Virus record (IMG/VR): IMGVR_UViG_3300048592_000115
Location: 1-45,616 of that record
Strand: one strand, 5' to 3'
Origin: a virus
DNA length: 45,616 nt
Shown here: positions 32,109 through 45,616 of the stretch, one piece after another
Layout: each line of letters begins with the position of its first letter
Position numbering within the stretch: the stretch's first letter is position 1
Made by a program: the position numbers and the translations under genes
The notes under the pieces: model-generated
The model's input: only the letters and a program-made list of their open reading frames with translations
The model's database searches: none
What the model was told of the DNA's origin: nothing

Positions 32109-32957
32109 TTATCTTTTGTATTTGGCGTACTCCTGTTCGGTCATACCTAGTTTAGCCGCCATGCTCCGTTCCTGCTGACTTAAATTTGCAGATACGGCTT
32201 TAGCAGGTTCTCCAGACATTTCACCAAAAGAAGTAGCATTGTCTGCGTTCTTCTCTGCTAACCCTTCTAAATAACCTTCTTCTTTCTCCGATCCTCTTCC
32301 TCCTTGCAATTGTGCCAGAAGCGTATTGTATGAACTTACCAACGCATCCTTGTAGGATAGTGGTTGCACCTTCATTAAAGCTTTTGCTAGAAAGTCTACC
32401 TTATCAGCAAACTCTGCTACCAATTGCCTGTCTTCCGGTGACGCATCCATATAATTTTTAGGATTCATTTCCGGTACAGCTTCCATGAACTCTAGTTGAG
32501 ATTGCTTGACATACTGGTCAAGTGTCATTTCATCCCGTATCTCCTTCTTTATCTTGTTGATATCGATTGGAACATCGGGTTTCTTTTGCCCATCCTCAAC
32601 CTTAACTCCCTCTTCTTTCTTTTCCCAAATGCCTGGTCGTGATTCTCTTATTCGGTTTAAAGCATCAGTTACCTGTTGCTCATCCAGTCCCTGCGACTTT
32701 AAATAGTCGGTAGTCCTGCCTTCATCCTTTAAGAGCCACTCCCCATAAGTTTGTAATTGCTTTTGATATTGGGAGTTCTGAGATTCCAGTTGCTGTGACT
32801 TTTTCTGTAATCTTTCAAAATTTATAGCTTCTTCTGGTTCCTCTTCGTGAGCCTCGCTATCGGGCTGGGAAGCTTCTTCGGATTCCTCTGTCGTATCAAG
32901 AACTTCTTCTTGAGGGATTTCGGTTTCCTCTGATGGAACAAGGTTTTCCTCGTTCAT
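32109..32957 (-). CDS. Scaffolding-like protein, 282 aa
   Basis: The N-terminal 45 residues are extremely acidic (EETEIPQEEVLDTTEESEE), then a coiled coil (FERLQKKSQQLESQNSQYQKQLQ), a helical centre and a basic C-terminal end (LSQQERSMAAKLGMTEQEYAKYKR), typical of scaffold proteins that bind capsid subunits through their C-terminus. It lies between portal and capsid genes. Confidence 0.75.
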   Translation of the reverse strand: MNEENLVPSEETEIPQEEVLDTTEESEEASQPDSEAHEEEPEEAINFERLQKKSQQLESQNSQYQKQLQTYGEWLLKDEGRTTDYLKSQGLDEQQVTDALNRIRESRPGIWEKKEEGVKVEDGQKKPDVPIDINKIKKEIRDEMTLDQYVKQSQLEFMEAVPEMNPKNYMDASPEDRQLVAEFADKVDFLAKALMKVQPLSYKDALVSSYNTLLAQLQGGRGSEKEEGYLEGLAEKNADNATSFGEMSGEPAKAVSANLSQQERSMAAKLGMTEQEYAKYKR

Positions 32958-32973
32958 ATTAAATTGTCTAAAT

Positions 32974-33012
32974 TAAAAAAGCTGTGGCTCCATTAAGGAA
33001 TTACACAGCTTT
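32974..33012 (-). terminator. Intrinsic terminator upstream of the scaffold gene
   Basis: Sense arms AAAGCTGTG (33012-33004) and CACAGCTTT (32986-32978) enclose a 17-base loop and lead into a six-base T-run. It follows the promoter-like element at 33025-33053, so it would end or attenuate a very short transcript, or end readthrough from the portal genes. Confidence 0.6.
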
Positions 33013-33024
33013 ATGCTTAAGTAA

Positions 33025-33053
33025 AGGATATAATATATCTGTATATATGTCAA
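33025..33053 (-). promoter_or_regulatory. Candidate promoter before capsid genes
   Basis: TTGACA (33053-33048), a 17-base spacer and TATCCT (33030-33025). It starts four bases after the upstream stop codon. The -35 is perfect and the -10 matches at four of six positions. Confidence 0.35.
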
Positions 33054-33056
33054 TTA

Positions 33057-33332
33057 TCACTTCTTTTTCTTCTTCTTTGATTTCAGTTCTATAAAGTTCT
33101 TTACTATCTTTTTCAACTCCTTGTCCCTTTCCCAGGCCATATAATGTCCCAACTGTACTGCGTGCTGTATCCTATCTTCCTCTTTAATGGGAACCACCCT
33201 AAAGCTTAGATCTTTCATCTCTTTTATGATAAGGTCGTGCAGCTTTTGCAAAACATGAAAATCCGGATTATCTGCTAAGTTAAGCAGGATTTGTAATTCA
33301 GTTTCATTTAAACTGTTGAGGTTGTCCTCCAT
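33057..33332 (-). CDS. Small basic-tailed protein, 91 aa
   Basis: Helical with a C-terminal lysine run (ELKSKKKKKK). It overlaps the portal gene's 3' end by 29 bases. No family recognised; the position suggests a head-assembly accessory. Confidence 0.55.
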   Translation of the reverse strand: MEDNLNSLNETELQILLNLADNPDFHVLQKLHDLIIKEMKDLSFRVVPIKEEDRIQHAVQLGHYMAWERDKELKKIVKNFIELKSKKKKKK

Positions 33333-36861: not shown

Positions 36862-38190
36862 TTAATGCGTATAATCCCACATGGACTTCTTCTTCCTCTG
36901 GATGTTAGCTCCGGAAGGAACATAAGAAAACCTTGCAGGTGAAATTAAATTAAGCTTAGTTTTAGAATGCATTAGTACAATATATCTCATAGCATCAATT
37001 AGATGGTCTAGCTCCTTTTCCGGCTCGTCTATTGCAGAGTCGGATCGCTGCTCCTTCCAGCGATACCTCTCCATCTCCATTATAAGATTAACACAATTTG
37101 GATGTATAAACAATTTAGGTTCCTTAGTAACGGGATTTATCTTTAACCTTTCTGCTATCCTGTCTATTGAAGTGATCACGCTCTTCCTGTCCTTGTAGAC
37201 TGGAGTTATGAACCAGCCATACCTGCTGTACTCTGCTATGGCACTACTGTCCTCACTATCCCCATATACTGCTCGTAAGCTATTCGGATACCTTTCCCTC
37301 TGAGCTCTTATGCTTCCAGCATGCTCAAAGATAGTCCGGTTGGCCCAGTAATACTCATCAAAAATATACCAGTTGTCATCCTCATCAAAATAACTGAATA
37401 GTACTGCAGTAGGATTGGTGTATCCAAAATCGTGCCCCAGCTCCAATGGGAACCTGGTCTTGACCTCAAACGCCCTTACATGAATTCCCCTTTCAAAATC
37501 CTTAAATACCAGCCCGGTATGCTTTCTAAAATCAGCTCCGTACTCCTGCATATAGCTGTCCTCGGTCATGGTGTCCTTTAACCTTTGTAGCTCCCGCTGT
37601 CCATCTTCGCTTAAAGTCCAGAAGTTGCCACTATCCTTAGTCGGTATCTGCCATCCTTTCCAGTCCGGCTCCCCGCTTTGAGAATATTGAAATAAGTCAA
37701 AGAAGAAGTTGTACCCCTTCGGAGTACCTATGAATACAGCCTTTCCTAACTTATCAGAAAGAGAAGGGAGAAGTATTTCCTCCCAGATCATCTTGGCATT
37801 CCTCGTACTAGCCACCTCATCCCAAATCAATAAGTCCAGTCCGGATCCTCTTAAACTCTCAGGCCTTTCTGCAGACTTTAACTGTAAGACGCTACCGTTG
37901 TGAAACTCTATCATTAGCTCCACATCGTTCTTCTTCTTGTACATCTGCTTGGTCAAGTACCTCGTGATGTCACTTCCCCTCCAGTAAACATCCCTGGCCT
38001 GTGGATATGTCGGTACCAAAATCCAGACCTTCTGGTTCTCCTTCTCTAAACAGGTGGCTATCGCCTCATTGAATGCGTATGTGCTTTTGCCACTACGCCT
38101 ACCCACTACCACTACCTTGAACCTGGTAGGATCACTGTGCAGCATCCTCTGCATCTCAGTCGGCTCATACTTGTATTGTATCTTCTCCAT
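36862..38190 (-). CDS. Terminase large subunit, 442 aa
   Basis: The packaging ATPase-nuclease. Walker A is GRRSGKST (30-37), Walker B LLIWDE (120-125) and the coupling motif FIGTPKG (153-159). The RNase H-like nuclease shows D254 (GHDFGYTNP), D311 (VYGDSED) and D395/D400 (DHLIDAMRY). Full length for the family. It overlaps the small subunit by 26 bases, and a purine-rich stretch in that overlap precedes its ATG. Confidence 0.95.
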   Translation of the reverse strand: MEKIQYKYEPTEMQRMLHSDPTRFKVVVVGRRSGKSTYAFNEAIATCLEKENQKVWILVPTYPQARDVYWRGSDITRYLTKQMYKKKNDVELMIEFHNGSVLQLKSAERPESLRGSGLDLLIWDEVASTRNAKMIWEEILLPSLSDKLGKAVFIGTPKGYNFFFDLFQYSQSGEPDWKGWQIPTKDSGNFWTLSEDGQRELQRLKDTMTEDSYMQEYGADFRKHTGLVFKDFERGIHVRAFEVKTRFPLELGHDFGYTNPTAVLFSYFDEDDNWYIFDEYYWANRTIFEHAGSIRAQRERYPNSLRAVYGDSEDSSAIAEYSRYGWFITPVYKDRKSVITSIDRIAERLKINPVTKEPKLFIHPNCVNLIMEMERYRWKEQRSDSAIDEPEKELDHLIDAMRYIVLMHSKTKLNLISPARFSYVPSGANIQRKKKSMWDYTH

Positions 38191-38554
38191 CTATTACTTG
38201 CCTCTCTGGCGGCCTCGGTATGTTAAATATTATATTGGTTCCCCCTCCCTTGCTCTCCCCTAAATATCCTCCGTACTTCTTCTGCATAGCCTCCCAATAC
38301 CGGAAATCGGTCTTGGCATTCTCTAACCCGATCTTGTCCAGATATACCATCGCATCCTTCATCCCCCTCGCCCACTCCCTATTCCACCACTCTATGAACT
38401 TCTCGCTCCTCTTCCACTTCTGCCACATGGCCGGATTTACCTCGGCCTTCTTACACCACTCAGCTATCACATTTCCAGTGCTGGGACTCAATGCAGCTTC
38501 CAGTACTCGCTGCATCCCCTCACTGGGCTTCCATACCATTAGCTCCTTCCCCAT
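38165..38554 (-). CDS. Terminase small subunit, 129 aa
   Basis: A helix-turn-helix N-terminal half (MQRVLEAALSPSTGNVIAEWCKKAEVNPAMWQKWKRSEKFIEWWN) resembles the phBC6A51-type homeodomain small subunit that recognises the packaging site. The C-terminal portion should oligomerise and contact the ATPase. Order and overlap with the large subunit support the call. Confidence 0.8.
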   Translation of the reverse strand: MGKELMVWKPSEGMQRVLEAALSPSTGNVIAEWCKKAEVNPAMWQKWKRSEKFIEWWNREWARGMKDAMVYLDKIGLENAKTDFRYWEAMQKKYGGYLGESKGGGTNIIFNIPRPPERQVIDGEDTIQV

Positions 38555-38694
38555 ATCGCGTATGTAATAACTACTAGTACCTTATCCCCTTGAAACTTCA
38601 CATATACCCTCGCATTCGTCTTCCCTACTAACTTCTCGTTTGTCGCTTCCTCTGCCTCCTCCAATCCATCATATAAGTCCATCTCTACCTTCAT
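38539..38694 (-). CDS. Small acidic protein, 51 aa
   Basis: An acidic first half (MKVEMDLYDGLEEAEEATNE) and a beta-like second half (NARVYVKFQGDKVLVVITYAIW). Its stop lies 16 bases inside the small terminase gene, which implies coupled translation. It lies in an otherwise empty gap with an A/T-rich leader. Function unknown. Confidence 0.6.
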   Translation of the reverse strand: MKVEMDLYDGLEEAEEATNEKLVGKTNARVYVKFQGDKVLVVITYAIWGRS

Positions 38695-38723
38695 TTAAAT
38701 AAATATAAAATTTATTTTAAACC

Positions 38724-38870
38724 TTATCTTCGTAATACCTCTATCCGAGTCCTCCTAATAAGTATCCTGAAATAATTAGCCATGCTTATACCCAACTTCT
38801 CACACGCCTCCCTCACCATCTCCCTCTCCTCCTCCGTTAATCTCACTATTACTTGTATGTTCCTCTTCAT
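38724..38870 (-). CDS. Second ribbon-helix-helix protein, 48 aa
   Basis: This is a minimal Arc/CopG-like fold: strand NIQVIVRLT (4-12), helix EEEREMVREACEKLG (13-27), the turn and helix ISMANYFRILIRRTRIEVLRR (28-48). It would dimerise and insert the antiparallel strand into the DNA major groove. Its ATG overlaps the stop of the larger RHH gene (ATGA), so the two are translationally coupled and may regulate together. Confidence 0.75.
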   Translation of the reverse strand: MKRNIQVIVRLTEEEREMVREACEKLGISMANYFRILIRRTRIEVLRR

Positions 38871-39319
38871 TCGTAATACCTTATTAAACTAGGATTTGCC
38901 ACTAGCTCCTCCGCCTGTGTTTCAATTACCGAATTCTTTATGTAAGGATCTGGATTCTTCTGATACCACCTTTTTACTATCCCCAACGCCTGTGCTTTAG
39001 TATAGGTATTACCTAAATTCTCGTTAGGTATTACCTGCTTTTTATCAACAAGAGCTTGAAGATTCGCGATTTCTTTTAATTTAGGTGTTACCTTTATGGG
39101 TACATTTTTAGGTGTTACCTGCTCCTTTTTAGGTGTTACCTCGTTAGGTGTTACCTGCTTAGGTGTTACCTTCATCCCATCTTCATCACTCTCCACACAT
39201 GCCATTATCGCCTCCACTACATATCCGTTCCTGCTCTCTGCATAATGCTTTACACACTTCTCTAGCCTCTCAAAATCCCCCTCTTCTATCTTTACTGTAA
39301 ATGTCTTGAACTTCTTCAT
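38867..39319 (-). CDS. RHH DNA-binding protein carrying an internal operator array, 150 aa
   Basis: Residues 1-45 form a ribbon-helix-helix domain: strand FKTFTVKI, helix EGDFERLEKCVKHYAES, helix NGYVVEAIMACVES. Residues 48-97 are a low-complexity linker with repeated VTP(K/N) encoded by the palindromes AGGTGTTACCT. The C-terminal 50 residues form an alpha-helical domain (TKAQALGIVKRWYQKNP). It is probably an autoregulated transcription factor controlling the late operon it heads. No ParA-like gene is present, so plasmid-type partition is less likely. Confidence 0.75.
   Translation of the reverse strand: MKKFKTFTVKIEEGDFERLEKCVKHYAESRNGYVVEAIMACVESDEDGMKVTPKQVTPNEVTPKKEQVTPKNVPIKVTPKLKEIANLQALVDKKQVIPNENLGNTYTKAQALGIVKRWYQKNPDPYIKNSVIETQAEELVANPSLIRYYE
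39004..39171. promoter_or_regulatory. Seven palindromic operator-like sites within the RHH gene
   Basis: AGGTGTTACCT occurs at 39083, 39110, 39131, 39146 and 39161, and the symmetric variant AGGTATTACCT at 39004 and 39026 (each 11 bp; positions are first bases). Six are read as Val-Thr-Pro or Val-Ile-Pro, but the 39004 copy is read in another frame as Gly-Asn-Thr. Conservation of the DNA word in two frames indicates selection on DNA rather than protein. Confidence 0.85.
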
Positions 39320-39372
39320 AGGTGTTACCTAAATATTAAGGTGTTACCTAAATATACACTTAGGTGTTACCT
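39320..39372. promoter_or_regulatory. Three operator sites overlapping the late promoter and start codon
   Basis: AGGTGTTACCT lies at 39362-39372 (inside the -35/-10 spacer), 39339-39349 (predicted transcription start) and 39320-39330 (touching the ATG). Bound protein at these sites would block polymerase and initiation. Confidence 0.85.
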
Positions 39373-39379
39373 TTGTCAA
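39351..39379 (-). promoter_or_regulatory. Late operon / RHH gene promoter
   Basis: Perfect TTGACA (39379-39374), exact 17-base spacer, TATATT (39356-39351). A Bacteroidota-type reading (TTTG, then TATATTTA) also fits. The spacer contains a complete operator palindrome. Confidence 0.7.
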
Positions 39380-39708: not shown

Positions 39709-39738
39709 AAAAAAAGAGGGAGTTGTTAGCTCCCTCTT
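39709..39738 (-). terminator. Intrinsic terminator of the early operon
   Basis: Sense AAGAGGGAG (39738-39730) pairs with CTCCCTCTT (39722-39714), nine base pairs with a 7-base loop, running into a run of seven T. It follows the last early gene stop by five bases. Confidence 0.88.
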
Positions 39739-44935: not shown

Positions 44936-45516
44936 AGCATTTCTAAATAACGGTTTAAATATTTAAGATGATTAATAATATCATTAGCCATTTCTTCTAA
45001 TCTATACTCCCAATCACTAGCATACTTAGACCTTTCATATTCTTTAACTCGTTTCAAAACTACACCTTTAATGGATTCCCCTTCCCAAATACTGTCTATC
45101 TCTGCAAGCAATCCTTTGTTACACTTATCACCAATAGTCCACATATACAATTGCAACTGCTGTTCATAGCCATTACTGTGACCGGTCTTCCAATCTAATA
45201 CTAAACTACTATCGTAAAGGTCTGGTCGTGCTACTATTATATGACTCTCCCTTTCTATCTCTATTGTCTTTTCCTGCTTATACCTTTTCTTTGTTAAGTA
45301 TTTAGCAATCCCATCCACCGACTGCCAACCATTATCTTCTATCCAGGTATGTACGATTTGACCGTCTACTTGTTTTTGAGTGCCAGCAGTCTTAATATCG
45401 GTAAGGTATTGCCATACTGCCAGCCAATCTTTCTTAACCCAAAGCTTATACAAAGACCAAGAGGAACGAATTTTAGGATATATCCTTCTATACTCTTTGT
45501 ATTTCTCTAAGTTCAT
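44932..45516 (-). CDS. RecB/Cas4-type PD-(D/E)XK nuclease, about 194 aa
   Basis: Numbering from the alternative upstream ATG at 45534: motif I is G58...H62...E66 (VDGQIVHTWIE), then RPDL with D105, the core LVLDWKTG with D114 and K116, and motif III YEQQLQLYMW (123-132). This is the Cas4/RecB exonuclease arrangement; no C-terminal Fe-S cysteine cluster is apparent. It would process DNA ends in recombination. The ATG at 45516 follows AAGAAGA; either start overlaps the 120-residue gene on the closed circle. Confidence 0.85.
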   Translation of the reverse strand: MNLEKYKEYRRIYPKIRSSWSLYKLWVKKDWLAVWQYLTDIKTAGTQKQVDGQIVHTWIEDNGWQSVDGIAKYLTKKRYKQEKTIEIERESHIIVARPDLYDSSLVLDWKTGHSNGYEQQLQLYMWTIGDKCNKGLLAEIDSIWEGESIKGVVLKRVKEYERSKYASDWEYRLEEMANDIINHLKYLNRYLEML

Positions 45517-45598
45517 TCTTCTTTTTATAAGCAATTAGCTTTTCTGTAATCTTAGCATTATTAAATTTAATGCCAGCCCTAATAGCCTTTTTTAAAAG
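45473..45598. repeat. Right copy of 126-bp terminal direct repeat
   Basis: Exactly identical to 1-126. After 45598 the sequence departs from 127 onwards by transitions only, over the last 18 bases. Confidence 0.9.
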
Positions 45599-45616
45599 CT
45601 TTTTATTTAAAGCTAC
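45488..45616 (-). CDS. Partial second copy (variant allele) of the 120-aa protein
   Basis: The last 42 codons and stop of the gene seen complete at 16-378, cut by the window edge. The end is identical, but the first visible codons differ (VALNKK here, IALDRG in the complete copy). Conservative changes and transitions only suggest an allele from a related phage strain. Confidence 0.75.
   Translation of the reverse strand, partial: VALNKKLLKKAIRAGIKFNNAKITEKLIAYKKKNELREIQRV

Follow-up and report, generated by a model that had tools for sequence, protein, structure and literature searches.

In the CopG/MetJ/Arc/SvtR-type systems known to us, operators lie at promoters, and pSK41 Rep is a plasmid replication initiator with a fold other than RHH. 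Two lines of published work bear on the locus described here. RHH repressors bind cooperatively to operator repeats that cover the promoters of their own genes, and they oligomerise along the DNA; SvtR represses the promoter of a virion-protein gene as well as its own (PMC5569661); cooperative binding of an RHH protein to repeated sites over its own promoter has also been described elsewhere (PMC9499535). In addition, arrays inside the gene of the very protein that binds them are already known for replication initiators: gene O of lambda contains four iterons beside a 38-bp AT-rich stretch (PMC3349717), and the N-terminal domain of pSK41 Rep binds four Rep boxes located centrally in rep, the ori-encoded central domain of the protein being a linker (PMC5703833). 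Since both of these genes hold sites for their own products, the original prediction that no described phage regulator has such an arrangement needs to be qualified. The single elements are already known, while their combination, a probable RHH late-operon regulator with most of its sites in its own gene, was not found described in the open-access literature.

The window, by which we mean the whole stretch of DNA analysed, is the single virus record IMGVR_UViG_3300048592_000115 (45,616 bases). Its bases 1-143 and 45473-45615 form a direct repeat with 96.5% identity, and it is thus probably a near-complete phage genome, either circular in map or terminally redundant; the mismatches between the 143-bp end repeats suggest strain variation. 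The phage is tailed, with recognised genes for TerL, portal and capsid. It also carries a hexamer repeat, TAGACC, in about 26 copies (2260-2415) inside an ORF (2252-2455) whose product is of low complexity and rich in Ser, Arg, Gly and Trp.

A whole-genome pattern count returned ten exact copies of AGGTRTTACCT on the plus strand of this 45.6-kb genome, every one within 39004-39372 and none outside, just as originally claimed; the sites are not dispersed. The gene strand reads AGGTAAYACCT at these sites, all ten of which share one orientation. The earlier description of the word as a palindrome holds for the AGGT and ACCT half-sites but not for the 3-nt centre that they flank, which is non-palindromic. 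Three copies lie upstream of an ORF for a 150-aa protein and seven within it (Table 1), including three held in a 15-bp tandem triplicate (39129-39171), which may not be independent of each other. Helical phasing of the sites at 10.5 bp was not significant (p about 0.07 and 0.28). Outside the array, sites with up to two mismatches number about 45 in the whole genome against 26 expected from shuffling, an excess that probably reflects codon and strand bias. Two identical near-copies, AGGTATTACGA, flank the neighbouring gene for a 48-aa RHH protein.

Table 1. Features of the array locus in the window, in its own coordinates.
Feature	Position	Strand	Remarks
Terminator-like hairpin and T-run	39714..39738	-	between upstream SSB-side genes and the operon of the 150-aa gene
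Sigma-70-type promoter, TTGACA-17-TATATT	39351..39379	-	11/12 matches
Site in -35/-10 spacer	39362..39372	-	directly after TTGACAA; same position in G001 (284-294)
Site just 3' of -10	39339..39349	-	over probable transcription start
Site abutting ATG	39320..39330	-	its AGG also at Shine-Dalgarno-like distance; G001 counterpart 317-327, 1 mismatch
150-aa gene	38867..39319	-	ORF
Intragenic site	39161..39171	-	frame K-V-T-P
Intragenic site	39146..39156	-	frame Q-V-T-P
Intragenic site	39131..39141	-	frame E-V-T-P
Intragenic site	39110..39120	-	frame Q-V-T-P
Intragenic site	39083..39093	-	frame K-V-T-P
Intragenic site	39026..39036	-	frame Q-V-I-P
Intragenic site	39004..39014	-	other frame, L-G-N-T-Y
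Near-copy AGGTATTACGA, 2 mismatches	38871..38881	-	150-aa/48-aa gene junction (48-aa gene start); possibly chance
48-aa RHH gene, NikA/MobA-like	38724..38870	-	overlaps end of 150-aa gene; Pfam PF21983, E 2.4e-8, above cut-off
Near-copy AGGTATTACGA, 2 mismatches	38730..38740	-	48-aa gene end; possibly chance
Probable TerS	38165-38554	-	from position and sequence style alone
TerL	36862-38190	-	PHROG, E 9.5e-42

The promoter at 39351-39379 is, from 5900 to 44703 on the strand of the gene, the sole promoter-like site with at least 11 of 12 matches. One copy of the word falls in its 17-bp spacer, one after the -10 and one at the ATG, in agreement with the placement at spacer, transcription start and start codon that had been proposed. 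The 150-aa gene is followed by the 48-aa RHH gene, a 51-aa ORF, a probable TerS gene and TerL, these last two being the first packaging genes of the operon (36862..38554, minus strand), and so on to the portal gene, with no intergenic gap above 29 bp. Taken together, the promoter-like sequence, the upstream terminator and the tight gene spacing as far as the portal indicate, on sequence grounds, that the promoter heads the packaging/structural operon, which supports the predicted placement at the start of the late operon. An uninterrupted A/T stretch of 29 bp (38693-38721), the longest in the genome, lies between the 48-aa and 51-aa genes.

A second example of the array comes from the phage contig IMGVR_UViG_3300020048_000233 (44,558 bases; hereafter G001), which came up when viral contigs were scanned at the DNA level for two sites close together; protein-based homologue searches of viral contigs, phages and plasmids returned nothing or G001 alone. 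Its ORF at 328-810 codes for a homologue of the 150-aa protein (pairwise E 4e-9, with 35% identity across 80 residues), and its array comprises eight copies, six of them exact matches to AGGTRWYACCT and two with one mismatch, at -277, -215, -44 and -11 upstream of the ATG and at +125, +142, +166 and +211 in the gene, with no further copies elsewhere on the contig. As in the first phage, one copy (-44; 284-294) directly follows TTTGACAA, here in the spacer of TTGACA-18-TAGATT, and another (-11; 317-327, one mismatch) abuts the ATG. Both phages thus have repeats, putative operators, over the gene's own promoter, and 17 of the 18 pooled sites share an orientation. The capsid and portal proteins are 35% and 28% identical between the two phages, and neither TerL nor TerS shows BLAST similarity; judging by these comparisons, the phages are related but deeply diverged.

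G001 shows that the arrangement is not a one-off, and the layout of an array over both promoter and own coding sequence is known from these two genomes. Among 54 capsid-relative loci scanned, some of them too short to span the region, no similar array was seen except that of G001, and more distant capsid relatives without a 150-aa-type gene were also without the array. The sequence of the closest portal relative, L063, is truncated inside TerL, leaving the array locus outside it. Other pattern matches proved unrelated: those at L051, L158 and L032 fall in low-complexity proteins, that at L189 is a chance match to the promoter-site word inside a long gene, two-copy matches are due to chance and, among the matches listed, those in bacterial genomes are interspersed repeats; a further bacterial or prophage homologue may exist beyond the matches listed. 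As a side observation, the RecT gene of G001 (L191:4500-6455) encodes 652 aa, of which about residues 171-542 match profiles of primases and of the terminase large subunit; this part is perhaps a segment of intein or homing-endonuclease type common to such genes, and the TerL genes of G001 (L043:1648-3621) and L063 (2-3262) have intein-like interruptions, as judged by sequence style alone.

An important question is whether selection acts on the DNA word or on the peptide that it encodes. As had been claimed, the seven internal copies of the first phage are read in two frames (six as V-T/I-P, one as G-N-T), and so are those of G001 (three as V-I-P, one as G-N-T). We resampled the codons of the same protein with each phage's codon usage in 20,000 trials. 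The exact word AGGTRWYACCT, observed 7 times in the first phage and 3 times in G001, reached maxima of 4 and 2 in the recoded sequences, such that 0 of 20,000 trials attained the observed count in either phage; for the looser AGGTNNNACC, the 7 observed in the first phage compare with a recoded maximum of 6, and the 4 in G001 were reached once in 20,000. Furthermore, the centre codon differs between the phages (Thr versus Ile, VTP to VIP) while the half-sites are unchanged. Given the two frames in both phages, the outcome of the recoding and this substitution with half-sites kept, we conclude that it is the DNA word that is under selection. Along with the promoter copies, these results uphold the original prediction that the word is kept independently of the peptide; in G001, the single homologue found, we looked for a retained peptide with recoded DNA and did not see it.

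One could still argue that what is selected is a K/Q/E-V-(T/I)-P linker repeat spread through tandem duplication, with DNA identity as a by-product. The V-x-P frame of six of the seven internal copies in the first phage and three of the four in G001 fits this explanation, as does the 15-bp tandem that makes up three of the first-phage copies. It is nevertheless very improbable and already largely refuted, given the seven non-coding upstream copies (three in the first phage, four in G001), the G-N-T-frame copies in both genes, codon choices that are improbable under synonymous recoding and the persistence of the half-sites through the change from VTP to VIP. Tandem duplication could account for three first-phage copies, but it explains neither why the rest are unevenly spaced, nor the use of two frames, nor the copies at the promoter. 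An RNA-hairpin reading was ruled out by the copy that both phages have in the -35/-10 spacer: as the spacer copy is untranscribed, the target there is DNA and not RNA or protein.

The 150-aa protein is predicted to consist of an RHH-like part (residues 1-46), a low-confidence linker (about 47-79) and a helical C-terminal part (about 80-150). In the AF2 model, built from a two-sequence input, residues 1-13 are extended and followed by helices at 15-29 and 34-46 (pLDDT 72), and a low-confidence stretch up to about residue 104 precedes C-terminal helices with pLDDT near 70. Alignment to CopG by hhalign covers residues 6-37 (32 ungapped columns, 25% identity, probability 31%, E 5e-4 as a single comparison), and in PHROGs the protein weakly matched a family of transcriptional repressors (E 0.012). 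A Pfam search with the protein gave no match, and Foldseek with two models returned no RHH structure and nothing usable. RHH is therefore put forward as the best reading of the modelled fold, plausible but weakly supported. Most of the array encodes the linker, and its low-confidence character may be the reason why the gene can carry the array.

Neither Pfam, PHROGs nor NCBIfam contains an initiator family that matches the protein, and we know of no RHH initiators. This is relevant to the possibility of an intragenic replication origin, in which the sites would be iterons and the protein an initiator or accessory factor, binding with its N-terminal part and recruiting replication proteins with its C-terminal part, while the upstream copies would repress its own promoter. 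Such a modular plan is that of pSK41 Rep (PMC5703833) and lambda O (PMC3349717), and the common orientation of 17 of 18 sites, the proximity of the longest A/T-only run to the array in the first phage and the lack of a recognised helicase loader in that genome would all be in keeping with it. On the other hand, a DnaD-like helicase loader is encoded separately in G001 (32417-33127), on the recombination-gene side and far from the array; the G001 array is without a comparable adjacent AT-rich element, no DnaA-box cluster was found, and the 150-aa gene sits at the head of a packaging operon. We regard an origin as the chief competing explanation, though an unlikely one.

The gene and the array have been kept together while TerS and TerL are unrelated, and relatives without the gene are also without the array; the encoded protein is therefore, on this comparative evidence, the likely ligand of the sites. 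In the first phage, the 48-aa RHH protein, for which blastp found no counterpart among G001 ORFs, could be a ligand or partner. The same comparison bears on the idea that the array is a pac- or cos-proximal recognition region upstream of the terminase genes and the protein a packaging accessory. While the array does lie directly upstream of TerS/TerL and the G001 contig starts 50 bp before its first copy, the array is kept though the terminases are unrelated by BLAST, the 143-bp end overlap makes a circular map likely, in which the array is distant from the contig ends, and the placement of sites at promoter and start codon is left unexplained, all of which makes a packaging site distinctly improbable. 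A centromere, also suggested originally, would require the protein to be an RHH centromere-binding protein of a phage-plasmid. RHH ParB proteins do have binding repeats that extend over the promoters of their own genes (PMC9499535), but site spacing here is irregular and neither genome encodes a ParA-type ATPase or a tyrosine integrase (14/14 control genomes were positive); the absence of ParA from both genomes disfavours this suggestion, which we consider extremely improbable.

On balance, it is somewhat probable that the 150-aa protein is a CopG-type autorepressor of the packaging/structural operon promoter, the linker-coding part of its gene carrying an additional operator array. The copies that follow TTTGACAA in the promoter spacer and end at the ATG in both phages support such a model. 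The protein, of CopG (RHH) type, would bind AGGTAAYACCT and, from the sites at spacer, start site and start codon, would shut off its own promoter, which lies at the operon head. The internal sites, some 150-370 bp further downstream, would form another cluster for binding, which could raise cooperativity through bridging or through oligomer growth towards the promoter, and could hinder elongation into the operon. Late transcription would thereby be controlled sharply and in a titratable way. Binding and repression by this protein, the direction of control and the role of the internal cluster are what we infer from the layout, and repression of the promoter of the operon to which the gene belongs does not alone explain the timing of late-gene turn-on.

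A bolder reading, which we offer tentatively as falling a little short of probable, is that of a late-operon regulator whose coding sequence is itself a selected operator array. The gene would be at once messenger, linker peptide and titration or nucleation platform, occupancy of the gene body and not of the promoter alone would set late transcription, and the arrangement would be kept across deep divergence by site turnover in a disordered linker. If true for a transcriptional regulator, this would mean that the coding space of a disordered linker can double as a regulatory array in the DNA, and it would represent a compact design for switch-like control of late genes in phages.

Each of the known systems shares part of this arrangement. 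As in lambda O, the encoded DNA-binding protein has its sites within its own gene (PMC3349717), but lambda has four 18-bp iterons and an AT-rich element, whereas here the sites are of 11 bp and also occupy the promoter and the start codon, packaging genes adjoin and G001 has another helicase loader. The succession of N-terminal DNA-binding domain, site-encoded central linker and C-terminal domain recalls pSK41 rep (PMC5703833), although no sequence relationship was seen between pSK41 Rep and the 150-aa protein. The stoperators of mycobacteriophage L5 are likewise repeated repressor sites, found at promoters and also away from them, whose orientation follows that of transcription (PMC9283540), but they are spread genome-wide in short intergenic spaces, whereas the present sites occupy one locus and are mostly coding. 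The pSM19035 Omega/parS system also pairs an RHH protein with a set of repeats that overlap the promoter of its gene (PMC9499535), using contiguous 7-bp heptads and a ParA partner in place of irregular 11-bp sites with ParA absent. With CopG, MetJ, Arc and SvtR the locus shares a short, probable strand-helix-helix N-terminus and, across its own promoter, short (pseudo)palindromic repeats, here putative operators; it differs from them in that most copies lie in the regulator's own coding sequence and in that the 150-aa protein has an additional linker and a C-terminal helical part.
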